In this document: positions 7,244 through 17,042 of the stretch, piece after piece
How positions within the stretch are numbered: position 1 is the stretch's first letter
Layout: every line of letters starts with the position of its first letter
IMG/VR virus record: IMGVR_UViG_3300021170_000046
Location: 1 to 36,068 of that record
Strand: one strand, 5' to 3'
Origin: a virus
DNA length: 36,068 nucleotides
Position numbers and translations under genes: made by a program
Notes under the pieces: model-generated
The model's input: the letters and a program-made list of their open reading frames with translations, nothing else
The model's database searches: none
Told to the model about the DNA's origin: nothing

Positions 7244-7426
7244 ATGGATTGGATCATCGATAATATTGTGGTAATTTTATTAGTGTGGATCGGATTATCA
7301 TTTGGATTCAATATATATTATTCCATTTGGTCTCAACGAAAATTAAATAAAGCTCTGATAGAGGCAGAAGAAATTATGCGGATCTATTCGGAAGCATTAA
7401 AAAGAATCGAGAAAAAAAATGACTGA
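7244..7426 (+). CDS. Small membrane protein with cytoplasmic coiled coil
   Basis: The start at 7244 follows GAGGTG; a GTG two codons upstream is possible. The 60-residue product has one hydrophobic segment, IIDNIVVILLVWIGLSFGFNIYY, followed by a charged helix (RKLNKALIEAEEIMRIYSEALKRIEKKND). One membrane span with a charged helical tail is seen in many phage early and lysis-related proteins; no family can be named. It ends in AAAAATGACTGA, the last eight bases being shared with the start of the next gene, so translation of the operon is coupled. Confidence 0.6.
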   Translation: MDWIIDNIVVILLVWIGLSFGFNIYYSIWSQRKLNKALIEAEEIMRIYSEALKRIEKKND

Positions 7427-7703
7427 AGAAAAAATTCATAAAATAAAGCTTAAGATATTTTCTTTTCTTCAAAAAGATCTGTCTTGCATTACAGAAGCTC
7501 ATTGTACTGCAGTTGCTTGTTTGCAATTAACTTCAGATATAATTAGATACATATCTTTTCTTCTAAATACCCAAAAGAGTGACTTCATTGAAGAAGCTTT
7601 CAAACAAGAATGGCTTTCACTATTTAAACAATATTTAGATCATAAGGATATTGAGGATTTGGAGCTTCAAATGAAGCATAAATTTGGCGACAAATGGAAA
7701 TGA
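7419..7703 (+). CDS. Unknown early protein, paralogue 1 of a tandem family
   Basis: The 94-residue product shares a layout with those at 7941 and 8281: N-terminal charged helix, a Cys/Ala segment (HCTAVACLQLTSDIIRYISFLL), then FKQEWLSLFKQYLD and a C-terminal MKHKFGDKWK. The 7941 protein has CCSATACLQIAANLIS, FKEHWEALFKDYI and MKMKFGDKWK at the same places. No known domain is recognised. Its start overlaps the preceding stop by eight bases (ATGACTGA). The family was probably formed by tandem duplication within this operon. Confidence 0.6.
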   Translation: MTEEKIHKIKLKIFSFLQKDLSCITEAHCTAVACLQLTSDIIRYISFLLNTQKSDFIEEAFKQEWLSLFKQYLDHKDIEDLELQMKHKFGDKWK

Positions 7704-7948
7704 AACATATGGATATCATGAGTAAATTGGGAAAGATTCGAGAATCTATGGATGAAAAGCTCTTAGAGGAAATGAATAAACCAATGGATGAATTCGATCA
7801 TCTAGCACATAAAATTGAGCTTATGGATGCTGAAATTGATCAATTAAAGAAGAAAATGGCGACATTAGTATCTCTTTTGCAAGATTTCATGGAACTTGAA
7901 AGCTCTACGATTGTGAAAATTCTAGAAAAGTTGGCAAAAAATGACTGA
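7700..7948 (+). CDS. Small coiled-coil protein
   Basis: The start at 7700 overlaps the previous stop (ATGA); an ATG two codons upstream is also in frame. The 82-residue product is helical with heptad-like spacing in HLAHKIELMDAEIDQLKKKMATLVSLLQDFMELESSTI, indicating an oligomerising coiled coil. No Cys or catalytic motif. It lies between two members of the tandem family (7419 and 7941) and ends in AAAAATGACTGA with an eight-base overlap onto the next gene. Function unknown. Confidence 0.55.
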   Translation: MKHMDIMSKLGKIRESMDEKLLEEMNKPMDEFDHLAHKIELMDAEIDQLKKKMATLVSLLQDFMELESSTIVKILEKLAKND

Positions 7949-8288
7949 AGAAATGAGAAAAATGGAAAATATTACACGTGAAGAAATGGACGAAAATATA
8001 GATAAAATCAGAATTTTAATTCATGATTGTCTCGGCTCAGAAATCAAAGATTTTTATGGAGCATGTTGTAGCGCTACAGCTTGTTTACAGATAGCTGCAA
8101 ATCTTATTTCTTGTATGATTTTATCATCGAATAAAGAATTTTCCATTTCGGATGATTCTTTTAAAGAACATTGGGAAGCTTTATTTAAAGATTATATAAA
8201 AATAGGGACAATTTTTCTATCTCAAGATATTTCATATCAAATGAAAATGAAATTCGGCGACAAATGGAAGGACGAAAAAAATGACTGA
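7941..8288 (+). CDS. Unknown early protein, paralogue 2 of a tandem family
   Basis: The 115-residue product is the longest family member. Shared with 7419 are ACCSATACLQIAANLIS, DDSFKEHWEALFKDYI and QMKMKFGDKWK. An alternative start lies four or more codons in (MENITREEMDENI). It begins and ends with eight-base ATGACTGA overlaps, so it is coupled to both neighbours. The conserved Trp/Phe pattern FKxxWxxLF suggests a folded helical domain, but no family is recognised. Confidence 0.6.
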   Translation: MTEEMRKMENITREEMDENIDKIRILIHDCLGSEIKDFYGACCSATACLQIAANLISCMILSSNKEFSISDDSFKEHWEALFKDYIKIGTIFLSQDISYQMKMKFGDKWKDEKND

Positions 8289-13324: not shown

Positions 13325-13654
13325 ATGGGCAGTAATTTTGAAGCTGATTGTTTTGATATATCATTCTAATGAGGGAATTTAGACACAAATAATGGAAAAA
13401 TAAAATGTTCATAAGACCAATATTTTTGGATGCAGGAAAATATATTATTGTATTAGCGGGATTGAAAAAAATTTCGATTGATCTTGATATATTGACAGCA
13501 GAATATGCTGCGATTGACAATCTTATTTTACAATATCATACTACTAGTGAAGCACTGGCTGCTTTTGAACTGATCAAAAAGCAAATTTGTCGATCGAATG
13601 AATAAGATTTCCAACAGGAAAATATCTATGGGCAGTTCTTTTGAAGCTGATTGA
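13325..13654 (+). repeat. Duplicated 26-bp gene-start remnants
   Basis: Bases 13325-13350 and 13628-13653 match at 24 of 26 positions. Each begins with ATG: the first opens a 14-codon frame, MGSNFEADCFDISF, the second an 8-codon frame, MGSSFEAD. They flank the gene at 13405-13605. They look like copies of one gene start that have lost the rest of the gene, or mobile gene-cassette boundaries; short translated peptides cannot be excluded. Confidence 0.5.
13405..13605 (+). CDS. Hypothetical small protein
   Basis: The 66-residue product (MFIRPIFLDAGKYIIVLAGLKKISIDLDILTAEYAAIDNLILQYHTTSEALAAFELIKKQICRSNE) has a short beta-like start and a helical remainder, without strong membrane character. GGAAAAATAAA precedes the ATG. 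It is flanked on both sides by the 26-bp duplicated gene-start remnants. Not recognised; it may have entered as a cassette. Confidence 0.4.
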   Translation: MFIRPIFLDAGKYIIVLAGLKKISIDLDILTAEYAAIDNLILQYHTTSEALAAFELIKKQICRSNE

Positions 13655-13672
13655 CTTAAGAGGATATTTATA

Positions 13673-13864
13673 ATGGATATATATCGAATTCCTTTTCCTG
13701 AAGGATTTTTAGAAAAATCTTTAGGAGAAATAAGGATGGAATTTATAATATTAAAAAATCAATTTTCGATTCTTGAAAAGATTTTTGAGAAACATGGAAT
13801 TGATTATAAATCCGATAAACTTTGGATGGATGAAAATGGCCATCAACATTGGCTTGAAAAATGA
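13673..13864 (+). CDS. Hypothetical small protein
   Basis: AGAGGATATTTATA gives a good ribosome binding site. The 63-residue product (MDIYRIPFPEGFLEKSLGEIRMEFIILKNQFSILEKIFEKHGIDYKSDKLWMDENGHQHWLEK) is helical in its middle and ends in an aromatic/His segment. Its stop overlaps the next start (ATGA). No family is recognised. Confidence 0.45.
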   Translation: MDIYRIPFPEGFLEKSLGEIRMEFIILKNQFSILEKIFEKHGIDYKSDKLWMDENGHQHWLEK

Positions 13865-14112
13865 AACGTTTCGCCATATTTCAGTGCCCAGATCCTCCTC
13901 ATCAAGGAGGGATGAATGATTTTATTGGAGCATTTGATAATCTAAAAGACGCGGAATTGTTCGTTTCGAAAGCTTCTTATTCGGAACTTATAATTGAAGA
14001 TATGGAAGATTATTTGGCTCGTAATTCCCCTTATATCAGACAAGTAGATGATAATAAATATATTGCAATTGGCTCAACAGGGGAATATCTGTGGGGAATT
14101 GAAAATGATTGA
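13861..14112 (+). CDS. Hypothetical small protein whose 3' end abuts a terminase remnant
   Basis: The 83-residue product (MKRFAIFQCPDPPHQGGMNDFIGAFDNLKDAELFVSKASYSELIIEDMEDYLARNSPYIRQ...) has an alternating beta-helix pattern typical of a small alpha/beta domain. Its last residues WGIEND align with WVVDED of the terminase large subunit, and the terminase-like frame simply continues after its stop codon. The C-terminus may therefore have been acquired from the fused remnant. It overlaps the next start by eight bases (ATGATTGA). Function unknown. Confidence 0.5.
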   Translation: MKRFAIFQCPDPPHQGGMNDFIGAFDNLKDAELFVSKASYSELIIEDMEDYLARNSPYIRQVDDNKYIAIGSTGEYLWGIEND

Positions 14113-14295
14113 ACTTTTTATCGATTTGACATGGGGAAAAATATTTGTAGCACTAATTTACCATATCTTTCTATGGGAGAGTGGGCGTATTTACTCGATT
14201 TGGACACTGGATGGGAAGATGAATCTGCTTTCGTATTATATGCTTTTAATATTAACCACTCTATCTTATATAGACTTAATGGTTTCAAGAAAAAA
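14092..14295 (+). pseudogene. Fragment of a diverged terminase large subunit (nuclease-domain start)
   Basis: Read in the frame of the preceding gene and through its stop codon, this segment gives WGIEND, stop, TFYRFDMGKN, then WAYLLDLDTGWEDESAFVL, INHSILY and FKKK. The intact terminase at 15403-15609 gives WVVDEDKLVYRFDLQKN, WTFVLGVDTGWEDDSAFVL, INDSFLY and FKQKK in the same order, with one codon less here. At base level an AAA codon of the intact gene corresponds to the TGA stop. It carries the first nuclease Asp motif (DTGWED) but no ATPase region and no later Asp motifs, so it cannot be a working terminase. It is either a recombination scar from a related phage or a decayed duplication. 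Confidence 0.7.
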
Positions 14296-14320
14296 AATAC
14301 GAGAAGTTCAAAATGACTGA
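14105..14320 (+). CDS. Small membrane-protein frame overprinted on the terminase remnant
   Basis: In a different frame from the terminase fragment, a 71-codon frame starts at 14105 (ATGATTGA overlap with the previous stop) and ends in ATGACTGA overlapping the next gene, the same stop/start arrangement used in the 7244-8565 operon. The product, MIELFIDLTWGKIFVALIYHIFLW... then LSYYMLLILTTLSYIDLMV and a basic tail, has two hydrophobic segments. A GGGGAA lies about eight bases before the start. The coupling suggests that it is translated, making it a candidate new gene born by frame change on a relic; alternatively it is a chance frame. Confidence 0.4.
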   Translation: MIELFIDLTWGKIFVALIYHIFLWESGRIYSIWTLDGKMNLLSYYMLLILTTLSYIDLMVSRKKIREVQND

Positions 14321-14648
14321 ACTTAGTTTTCTCCTAGAACTTCTTTTGAATCATAAATTGCCCAAGATCACAAAAGATCTCATTTCGACTAGAATTAAAG
14401 AAGTCGAACAGGAATTGAATTGTACTAAAGTCGCATATCGAACAATTCCAGATCCCTCCACAACCCCAGATTCTCCATTCTCTACCACAAAAAAAACAGG
14501 ACTTAATGTTGTTGAACATCAAGTTCCCATCGACCAAGTAGCCCAGACTCCTCAAGCAGCTCAAGCACTTGCATCTAGACAGCAAGCAATTCAAGAAGCA
14601 ATAAGTGGTAAAATCCAAAAAGGACAAGAAAGGCCTAAGAAGTGGTGA
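14313..14648 (+). CDS. Hypothetical protein preceding terminase large subunit
   Basis: The 111-residue product has a helical N-terminus (MTELSFLLELLLNHKLPKITKDLISTRIKEVEQEL), a Pro/Thr/Ser-rich linker (PDPSTTPDSPFSTTKK) and an Ala/Gln-rich helical C-terminus ending QERPKKW. I recall proteins of this layout immediately before terminase large subunits in related phages, but not a function. Its start shares ATGACTGA with the preceding frame and its stop is one base before the terminase start. Confidence 0.55.
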   Translation: MTELSFLLELLLNHKLPKITKDLISTRIKEVEQELNCTKVAYRTIPDPSTTPDSPFSTTKKTGLNVVEHQVPIDQVAQTPQAAQALASRQQAIQEAISGKIQKGQERPKKW

Positions 14649-14649
14649 A

Positions 14650-16128
14650 ATGAATGATGGATACTCTTCTAGATCTATCCTTGAAGAATATGCTGCTCGC
14701 ATAGCCAGACAAAAGGCAATTCCTGATGTTTTAGATTATAAATTCCCGCAACAAGTTGCTTTTATCAAAGATCCATCCAAACAGAAGGCTCTATTTTGTA
14801 CCCGCCGTTCTGCGAAGTCCTATACTGTGGGCTTATATCTTGTTCAGGAAGCATTACAAAATCCTGGCTGCAATTGTTTGTTTATAGGTCTTACGCGAGA
14901 TTCTGCTAAGTCTATAATTTGGAAAGACATCCTGACCGTAATTGATCGTAAGCATAATTTGAAAGCGAGCTTCAATCAGACTGAACTCGCCATGACATTG
15001 GCAAATGGATCTATGATAAAGATTGTGGGTATTAACGCCGATCAAAATGAAATGCAAAAGCTTCTAGGACGCAAATTCAGACTTGTTTGTATCGATGAAG
15101 CTTCTATGTATACCATTGATGTTAGAAACCTTGTATATGGGATTTTAGGCCCTGCTATGGTTGATCCTAACTTCGAAGGAGATAGAGGAACTATATGTCT
15201 CACAGGAACAGCAAGTAACTTTCCTCGCGGACTTTTCTATGAAATTACCAAAGGGGAGGAAGGGGGATGGAAGTTATTTCAGTGGACAGCATTTGATAAT
15301 CCTTATGTTTCAAGACAATGGGGTGAAGCATTAGAGCAAATAAGAATTGAACGTCCCCAATACATGGAAACGCCCCAGTATAAACAATGGTATCTTAATA
15401 AATGGGTGGTTGATGAGGATAAACTTGTTTATAGATTTGATCTCCAAAAGAATTTATCTAAATGTTTGCCTATGGCTTTATATCCGGATGGTTGGACATT
15501 TGTGCTGGGTGTGGATACGGGATGGGAAGATGATTCAGCTTTTGTGCTCAGTGGATATCATATCAATGACTCTTTCTTATATATTATTAAATGCTTCAAA
15601 CAGAAAAAGATGACTTTTGAAGATGTCGCATTAAAAATTCAAGAATTCATGAGAGATTCTTTATATGCTCCTCATAAGATTATCATAGATGGTGCCAATA
15701 AACAGGGCGTCGAATCAATGCGATTTAGATCTGCAATCCCATTCGAATATGCTGACAAACAGGATAAAGTTACATTTATAGAACTATGTAATAGTGATCT
15801 AATCCAAGGAAAGATTAAGATCTTGGATACTCCCGAGAATAGGCCTCTATGGGAAGAAATGTCTGGATTAGTCTGGGTTACAGATGGGGATAAAATAAAA
15901 TATCCTAAGAAAGAACATCCTTCTTTACCAAATCATTTAACCGACGCGTTCATTTATGCCTGGAGATGCGGATATCATTACGCTTCTATTGCTCCCGAAA
16001 AGAAGATTATAAAATATACACCGGAATGGCATAAGCAGCAAGCTGATGGAATTTGGGATAGAGAAAGAGAATATCTCGAAAGACGCAATGATTGGCCTGA
16101 AGAAGGAAGTTTAGGAGATTTGGGGTGA
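14650..16128 (+). CDS. terL: Terminase large subunit
   Basis: The start at 14650 lies one base after the preceding stop; the frame extends to 14605 within the previous gene. The 492-residue product has the packaging-motor ATPase: a Walker A variant CTRRSAKSY (about 45-55), FIGLTRDSAKSIIWKDIL, and Walker B LVCIDEASMY (about 153-162), followed by a coupling-type TGTAS. The C-terminal nuclease has GVDTGWEDDSA (first Asp), IIIDGANKQG (second) and NHLTDAFIYAWR (third). The enzyme translocates DNA into the prohead through the portal (18941) and cuts concatemers. After the stop, a GTG-started 12-codon frame (TLEEMKKEALE, 16125-16163) may be a truncated follower gene. Confidence 0.9.
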   Translation: MNDGYSSRSILEEYAARIARQKAIPDVLDYKFPQQVAFIKDPSKQKALFCTRRSAKSYTVGLYLVQEALQNPGCNCLFIGLTRDSAKSIIWKDILTVIDRKHNLKASFNQTELAMTLANGSMIKIVGINADQNEMQKLLGRKFRLVCIDEASMYTIDVRNLVYGILGPAMVDPNFEGDRGTICLTGTASNFPRGLFYEITKGEEGGWKLFQWTAFDNPYVSRQWGEALEQIRIERPQYMETPQYKQWYLNKWVVDEDKLVYRFDLQKNLSKCLPMALYPDGWTFVLGVDTGWEDDSAFVLSGYHINDSFLYIIKCFKQKKMTFEDVALKIQEFMRDSLYAPHKIIIDGANKQGVESMRFRSAIPFEYADKQDKVTFIELCNSDLIQGKIKILDTPENRPLWEEMSGLVWVTDGDKIKYPKKEHPSLPNHLTDAFIYAWRCGYHYASIAPEKKIIKYTPEWHKQQADGIWDREREYLERRNDWPEEGSLGDLG

Positions 16129-16177
16129 CGCTTGAAGAAATGAAAAAAGAAGCATTAGAATAAGTAATTGAAGTTTG

Positions 16178-16202
16178 AACTGTCCGGTTTTTCCGGATAG
16201 TT
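16178..16202. terminator. Bidirectional terminator between convergent genes
   Basis: AACTGTCCGG-TTTTT-CCGGATAGTT forms a 10-bp stem with one G.U pair and a five-base loop. It lies between the terminase stop (plus strand) and the end of the leftward Gly-rich frames, where both transcripts must end. Confidence 0.6.
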
Positions 16203-16235
16203 GGAGAAAAGTAACCTATTTTTATTCCATTTATC

Positions 16236-16508
16236 TTATCCCTTACCATTGCCTGAGCCTGAATACGAACCAAAGCCGCAACCAAAGCCGTCTCCGAAAC
16301 CTGAATCGAAATTTGACCCAATACCTGAACCAAAACCTGAACCGATGCCATTACAAAAATCGTCCCCGTCACCGGAACCTGAACCATAACTTGACCCATA
16401 ACCCAAACCGTCACCGTTACCTGAACCGTCCCCATAACCGTCCCCGTAACCGGAACCCAAACCGTCACCGTTACCTGAACCGAAACCACTATTTATTTCT
16501 GTTCCCAT
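16236..16508 (-). CDS. Gly/Ser/Asp repeat protein, third copy of leftward series
   Basis: The 90-residue frame starts MGTEINSGFGSGNGDG and is almost entirely GSGYGDG-type repeat, with one Cys-containing patch (DDFCNGIGSG and CGFGSYSG). It shares its MGTEIN start with the frames at 16628 and 16922. The plus strand of the same DNA can be read as Pro/Glu repeats, but the shared starts and the upstream DUF6948-like gene favour the minus strand. Such repeats may be flexible surface or binding segments; function unknown. Confidence 0.4.
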   Translation of the reverse strand: MGTEINSGFGSGNGDGLGSGYGDGYGDGSGNGDGLGYGSSYGSGSGDGDDFCNGIGSGFGSGIGSNFDSGFGDGFGCGFGSYSGSGNGKG

Positions 16509-16511
16509 ATA

Positions 16512-16628
16512 TTATCCATTACCATCATCGGAATCGAAACCGAAACCATAACCGGAACCATCACCTGAACCTGAACCGTCGCCGAAACGGTGATCTTTTC
16601 GGCGATCATTAATTATTTCTGTTCCCAT
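16512..16628 (-). CDS. Short Gly-rich frame, second copy of leftward series
   Basis: This 38-codon frame starts MGTEIINDRRKDHRFGDGSGSG and ends in a short Gly-rich run (GYGFGFDSDDGNG). The charged insert after the common MGTEI start (INDRRKDHR) interrupts the pattern seen in the other two. It is probably a truncated member of the series, or a recent recombination product; independent expression is uncertain. Confidence 0.3.
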   Translation of the reverse strand: MGTEIINDRRKDHRFGDGSGSGDGSGYGFGFDSDDGNG

Positions 16629-16631
16629 ATG

Positions 16632-16922
16632 TTATCCATAACCATTACCGTCACCTGACCCGGAACCAAAACCTGAACCGATGCCATATCCGAAAACATC
16701 ACCGTCACCGTCACCATCAATAGAACCGGAACCGGAACCTAAACCATCACCGTAACCGTCACCGGAACCTGAACCGTCACCGGAACCGGACCCGTATCCA
16801 GAACCATAATCTATACCTGAACCTGCACCGTAACCTGAACCGTAACCTGAACCGTCACCGGAACCTGAACCGTCACCGGAACCATACCCATAACCATAAC
16901 CACTATTTATTTCTATTCCCAT
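16632..16922 (-). CDS. Gly/Ser/Asp/Tyr repeat protein, first copy of leftward series
   Basis: The 96-residue frame starts MGIEINSGYGYGYGSGDGSGSGDGSG and consists of GYGSGDG-type repeats to its end. In phages I recall, DUF6948 proteins are associated with C-terminal GDGYGSG repeats; here the repeat is in a separate frame whose ATG overlaps the end of the DUF6948-like gene in copy form. An 85-bp duplication (16873-17042) placed an extra copy of the junction between them, so this frame may once have been directly coupled to, or fused with, that gene. Confidence 0.45.
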   Translation of the reverse strand: MGIEINSGYGYGYGSGDGSGSGDGSGYGSGYGAGSGIDYGSGYGSGSGDGSGSGDGYGDGLGSGSGSIDGDGDGDVFGYGIGSGFGSGSGDGNGYG

Positions 16923-17042
16923 ACTGGTACGCTTTCGATTGATTTTTTGGCAGCTTCTCACCGGAACCATACCCATAACCATAACCACTATTTATTTCTA
17001 TTCCCATACTGGTACGCTTTCGATTGATTTTTTGGCAGCTTC
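16873..17042. repeat. 85-bp perfect tandem duplication
   Basis: Bases 16873-16957 and 16958-17042 are identical and adjacent. The unit holds, on the minus strand, the last codons of the DUF6948-like gene (AAKKSIESVPVWE) and the start of the Gly-rich frame (MGIEINSGYGYGYGSG). Because 85 is not a multiple of three, the copy nearer the gene opens a 34-codon frame (16903-17007) that runs out of frame through the second copy. Perfect identity means the event is recent or is an assembly artefact. Confidence 0.85.

Follow-up and report, generated by a model that had tools for sequence, protein, structure and literature searches.

A decayed piece of the large terminase gene ahead of the intact gene in a viral genome, probably the relic of a partial duplication

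Gene remnants in phages and the terminase locus

Gene remnants left by partial tandem duplication followed by deletion are known in phage genome evolution. The locus described here, in a virus record of 36,068 bases analysed over its whole length (the window), shares their makeup: a truncated and diverged copy of a neighbouring gene lies beside the intact one and is accompanied by a short duplicated boundary. It does not differ from them in principle; here the boundary is a translation start, so that gene coupling is kept. For terminase genes in particular, a passage of PMC9958956 cites the T4 Hp17 amplifications of terminase gene 17 (Wu, Wu and Black 1991), and gene amplification around pac is discussed in a passage of PMC3012670. 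The present locus would resemble Hp17 in recombination at short homologies around terL and in having extra terL sequence in the same neighbourhood. The T4 copies are recent, selected and intact, whereas the copy in our window is old, single and decayed. Compared with the large terminase subunit families, to which its parent gene belongs, it has about 60 of 507 codons left and lacks a complete active site. In kind the remnant is ordinary, the apparent footprint of a partial duplication later cut down.

The intact parent gene, terL (Table 1), matches the PHROGs large-terminase families phrog_38, phrog_5653 and phrog_7579 (E-values from 2.6e-7 to 9.4e-7), and its match to Pfam Terminase_3 (E-value = 0.001) falls short of the cut-off of that family. 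The TerL profile found no solved structure by sequence, and among named phages its kin are remote (identity <27%). Two scans of IMG/VR with terL returned 18 relatives at 57-72% identity, besides the contig L001, and then 80 loci; identity of terL to its relatives spans 45-73%. L001 represents the same phage as the window, with 0 mismatches and one gap in 9,082 bases compared and with the same arrangement. Relatives show the ancestral gene order, which is 116, 111, terL and lacks the remnant. Gene 111, conserved next to terL in relatives, is likely a packaging-module gene, of unassigned function.

Several other features of this neighbourhood and of the window were observed. In the window terL no intein is seen. 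In the relative L012, terL is broken near codon 445 by a 301-aa Hint-domain insertion (L012:5425-6327; Pfam Hint_2, E-value = 2.2e-9), apparently an intein in the terminase nuclease domain, and gene 111 is separated from terL by a tRNA gene (L012:3491-3563). Downstream of terL in the window, positions 16172-17042 consist of low-complexity, GAACCG-like repeats of 6-30 bp, closed by an exact 85-bp tandem duplication (16873-17042) that is present in L001 too. Another local duplication, with both copies open, is the pair of neighbouring paralogues at 7419-7703 and 7941-8288 (36% identity over 101 aa, E-value = 2e-17, no Pfam match). No group I intron or other catalogued RNA was detected in the window at Rfam gathering thresholds.

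Table 1. Positions of the features discussed in the text
Feature	Position	Strand	Evidence or remarks
Lineage-specific insert, ORFs of 66, 63 and 83 aa, 31% G+C	13325..14092	+	between the conserved gene 116 and gene 111, directly left of the scar
Left copy of gene-111 start region (weak ribosome-site sequence, ATG at 14105, codons M-I-E-L)	14093..14116	+	19/24 bases identical to 14301-14324
71-aa ORF, hydrophobic, in frame with the start codon of the left gene-111 copy, out of terL frame	14105..14320	+	codon usage log-odds -0.013
terL remnant, ~180 bases, terL codons ~275-335	14117..14298	+	~47% aa and 63% nt identity
61-aa ORF read in terL frame, without a recognisable ribosome-binding site, overlapping gene 111 at ATGA	14131..14316	+	codon usage log-odds 0.196
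Right copy of gene-111 start region, the one in use	14301..14324	+	start of gene 111
Gene 111, 111 aa	14313..14648	+	found by tblastn ahead of terL in 11 first-set relatives and in more of the second set
terL, intact, large terminase subunit, 507 aa	14605..16128	+	PHROGs families, relatives
terL segment paralogous to the remnant	15428..15609	+	alignment; the remnant is its diverged copy

Extent of the remnant and its left boundary

A self comparison of the whole window recovers the pair formed by the remnant and terL (E-value = 7e-15), and tblastn matches between the two have E-values of about 4e-12 to 1e-11. Translated in the terL frame, positions 14092-14298 exhibit 47% identity to TerL residues 267-335. 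The Smith-Waterman score of the amino acid sequences is 143, against a mean of 28.8 (sd 4.0) and a maximum of 48 in 1000 shuffles, and at the DNA level the score is 58, against 13.1 (sd 1.5) for shuffles. Given this similarity above chance and the agreement of L001, the outcome that would have counted against the initial annotation, a score no better than that of shuffled sequence, is therefore absent. The annotation had described a decayed terminase nuclease fragment ahead of the intact gene, and this description holds for a piece of 60 codons. The first catalytic aspartate of the nuclease fold (DTGWED) falls inside the remnant in the alignment with the family, and the other two of the three nuclease carboxylates are absent; a passage of PMC9958956 gives the corresponding triad of T4 as Asp401, Glu458 and Asp542. 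The ATPase domain with Walker A/B is missing as well, and 5 of the 18 residues invariant in 16 TerLs are broken, against 0-2 in genuine TerLs. Judged from these features, the remnant cannot work as a terminase. A comparable extra piece of terL was found in none of the other loci among the approximately 85 related ones; the split terL matches in L012 and L018 correspond to an intein and a frame break inside a single terL.

The left end proved to be of a different nature from that first described, in which the fragment started at 14092 and its homology continued past a stop codon (AAA to TGA) into the previous gene. Anchored at the secure part of the alignment, leftward extension along terL scores 5.8, a value matched by 3% of shuffles, whereas extension along the gene-111 start region scores 14.5, above all 400 shuffles (maximum 11). 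Because the leftward extension fits the start of gene 111 and not terL, the terL-derived part begins at about 14112-14117, and we dropped the homology through the stop codon in favour of a copy of the gene-111 start. No terL homology was found upstream of the remnant, either in this extension test or in the comparison of the approximately 85 loci. The repeat, which first surfaced as D2 in a repeat listing, was compared in ATG register with 28 other starts in the window; these reach at most 14 identities with a mean of about 11, against the 19 of the two gene-111 copies. Such a duplicated boundary sequence is expected of a tandem duplication scar. The left copy overlaps the stop of the 83-aa ORF as ATGATTGA, corresponding to ATGACTGA at 14313, and the TGA at 14110-14112 is best read as the normal stop of this ORF, placed inside the copied gene-111 start in the usual overlap. 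The bases AACTT are common to both sides of the left joint (terL ...GATAAACTTGTTTATAGATTTGA, remnant ...ATGATTGAACTTTTTATCGATTTGA). With its left end assigned to a copy of the gene-111 start, the remnant is thus bracketed by two gene-111 starts.

Immediately to the left, the three ORFs of the lineage-specific insert have no homologue in the approximately 85 related loci, and for the 83-aa ORF neither IMG/VR, apart from the L001 contig, nor phage records contain one. In many close relatives 3-30 bp separate gene 116 from gene 111, and in the window about 990 bp, including the scar; three other relatives (L003-L005) carry about 800 bp more between the two genes. In L003 this slot holds a gene for a papain-family cysteine protease (L003:3943-4683; Pfam PF00112, E-value = 1.8e-15). 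The insert of the window also contains a 26-bp direct repeat (92%; 13325-13350 and 13628-13653, ATGGGCAGT..TTTTGAAGCTGATTG), absent from the relatives, each copy of which is an abortive start (MGSNFEAD and MGSSFEAD). This repeat may be another scar, left in the insert by duplication of a gene start.

Ancestry of the remnant and a model for its formation

In a codon model fitted on the terL tree, the best attachment point of the remnant is the terminal branch of the window: the second-best branch is worse by 4.3 units of log-likelihood (lnL), the base of the clade by about 6.5, and branches beyond the immediate clade by about 20. Concerning derived bases of the window terL at otherwise conserved sites, 9 of 20 are shared by the remnant, where independent AT-biased change, allowed for generously, would predict 2.2 (P = 0.0001); three of the nine are T to C, and so run against the AT bias. 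A loop has 28 residues in both the remnant and the window terL and 27 in the nearest relatives, the length of 28 recurring elsewhere. The nucleotide tree joins the remnant to the window with weak support (65/86), and alternative placements are not rejected by it. A protein tree attached the remnant to L024/L027 on a branch of 2.05, a placement we distrust because the branch is so long. From the codon placement and the shared derived bases, which put the origin inside the parent lineage, we read the remnant as derived from the phage's own terL lineage or from a very close unsampled sister. Two origins had been proposed in the initial annotation, one by recombination involving a diverged terminase, the other by duplication followed by loss. 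The codon-model placement, the shared derived bases and the duplicated gene-111 start favour the second, and the first two of these speak against a far-diverged donor.

The presence of two gene-111 starts suggests that the block formed by gene 111 and terL was duplicated and then underwent deletion. We consider it likely that the remnant is the relic of a partial duplication of this block, later trimmed. From the observed arrangement (gene-111 start, terL codons 275-335, gene-111 start) we infer the following order and mechanism of events. Unequal or template-switching recombination would have joined terL at about codon 335 to sequence just upstream of gene 111, giving a first product of the form 111' - terL'(1-335) - 111 - terL, in which the source of the extra copy may be either the resident terL or a sister phage within this lineage. 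Most of 111' and terL' would then have been lost by deletion at a few bases shared by the gene-111 start (...GAACTT) and terL (...AAACTTG), and the leftover, the start of 111' fused to codons 275-335 of terL', would subsequently have drifted. A one-step template switch gives the same order of parts. Neither an intact tandem copy of gene 111 and terL nor an intermediate with a full second copy was found among the approximately 85 related loci.

Alternatively, the remnant might result from illegitimate recombination with the terL of an unsampled sister of the same immediate clade, perhaps together with the small-ORF insert. This agrees with the position of the remnant at the end of the lineage-specific insert, with an amino acid identity of 51% to L027, a little above the 48% to the window terL, and with the resemblance of most of its divergence to constrained terL evolution. 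However, the derived bases and loop length are common to the remnant and the window terL specifically, and the copied gene-111 start requires the 111-terL block, not terL alone; we therefore regard such a donor as unlikely, although a very close sister as donor would look the same as self-duplication.

Constraint, open frames and significance of the remnant

On the remnant branch, with about 59 codons and hence low power, the codon model with omega fixed at 1 fits slightly worse than with a free omega of 0.10 (by lnL 2.2, p about 0.04), and a two-phase (mixture) fit on the same codons, again of low power, places most of the divergence in a constrained phase. Changes at conserved sites, counted separately for the three codon positions (11/53, 8/54, 5/25), look neutral; these counts were set aside and replaced by the codon model, because third positions that are conserved form a biased sample. 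The remnant can be read through without a stop in two frames, each with a chance of about 4-8% and jointly 0.1-0.5% under neutral drift to such divergence. The constrained fit and the open frames thus suggest that the parent copy was probably functional for much of the divergence, here or in a sister. A second copy that was functional for a while and then cut down would explain both the broken invariants and the signal of constraint.

The same open frames could be taken to mean that the remnant is kept as a small gene, either for a 61-aa peptide in the terL frame (e.g. an interfering TerL fragment) or for an overprinted 71-aa protein. The ATG that opens the 71-aa frame overlaps the stop of the preceding ORF, the frame closes inside the following gene start, and codon usage in the terL frame is still gene-like, close to the 0.187 log-odds of the same region of terL. 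Nevertheless, the intact terL already has this +1 frame open, codon usage in the 71-aa frame does not resemble that of a gene, and the 61-aa ORF lacks a ribosome site. The broken invariants also argue against a preserved peptide, as does the absence of such a gene from other phages in the phage records searched, where the fragment ORF, the 71-aa frame, the 83-aa ORF and the whole 1-kb insert had no matches. Retention as a small gene is thus improbable, and it is very improbable that the remnant has been reused as a new overprinted hydrophobic protein, translated from the start codon of the gene-111 copy in a frame different from that of terL. An assembly artefact can be practically dismissed: the window and L001 could share a sample and so perhaps be dependent, but the two contigs agree over 9 kb, and the DNA of the remnant is never more than 63% identical to any terL found, so that a misjoin of the phage's own reads is excluded.

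We judge the remnant of terL to be a non-functional relic, most likely without a function of its own, and its 61-aa and 71-aa ORFs to be probably incidental. A gene caller could name either ORF as a new protein; both are better treated as relics. Since the two open frames end within the start of gene 111, ribosomes from the 83-aa ORF can pass to gene 111, and the leftover survives because this downstream gene start is intact. In this phage, the relic would record how the gene slot ahead of the packaging module is built and pruned, by unequal duplication and by deletion at a few matching bases.
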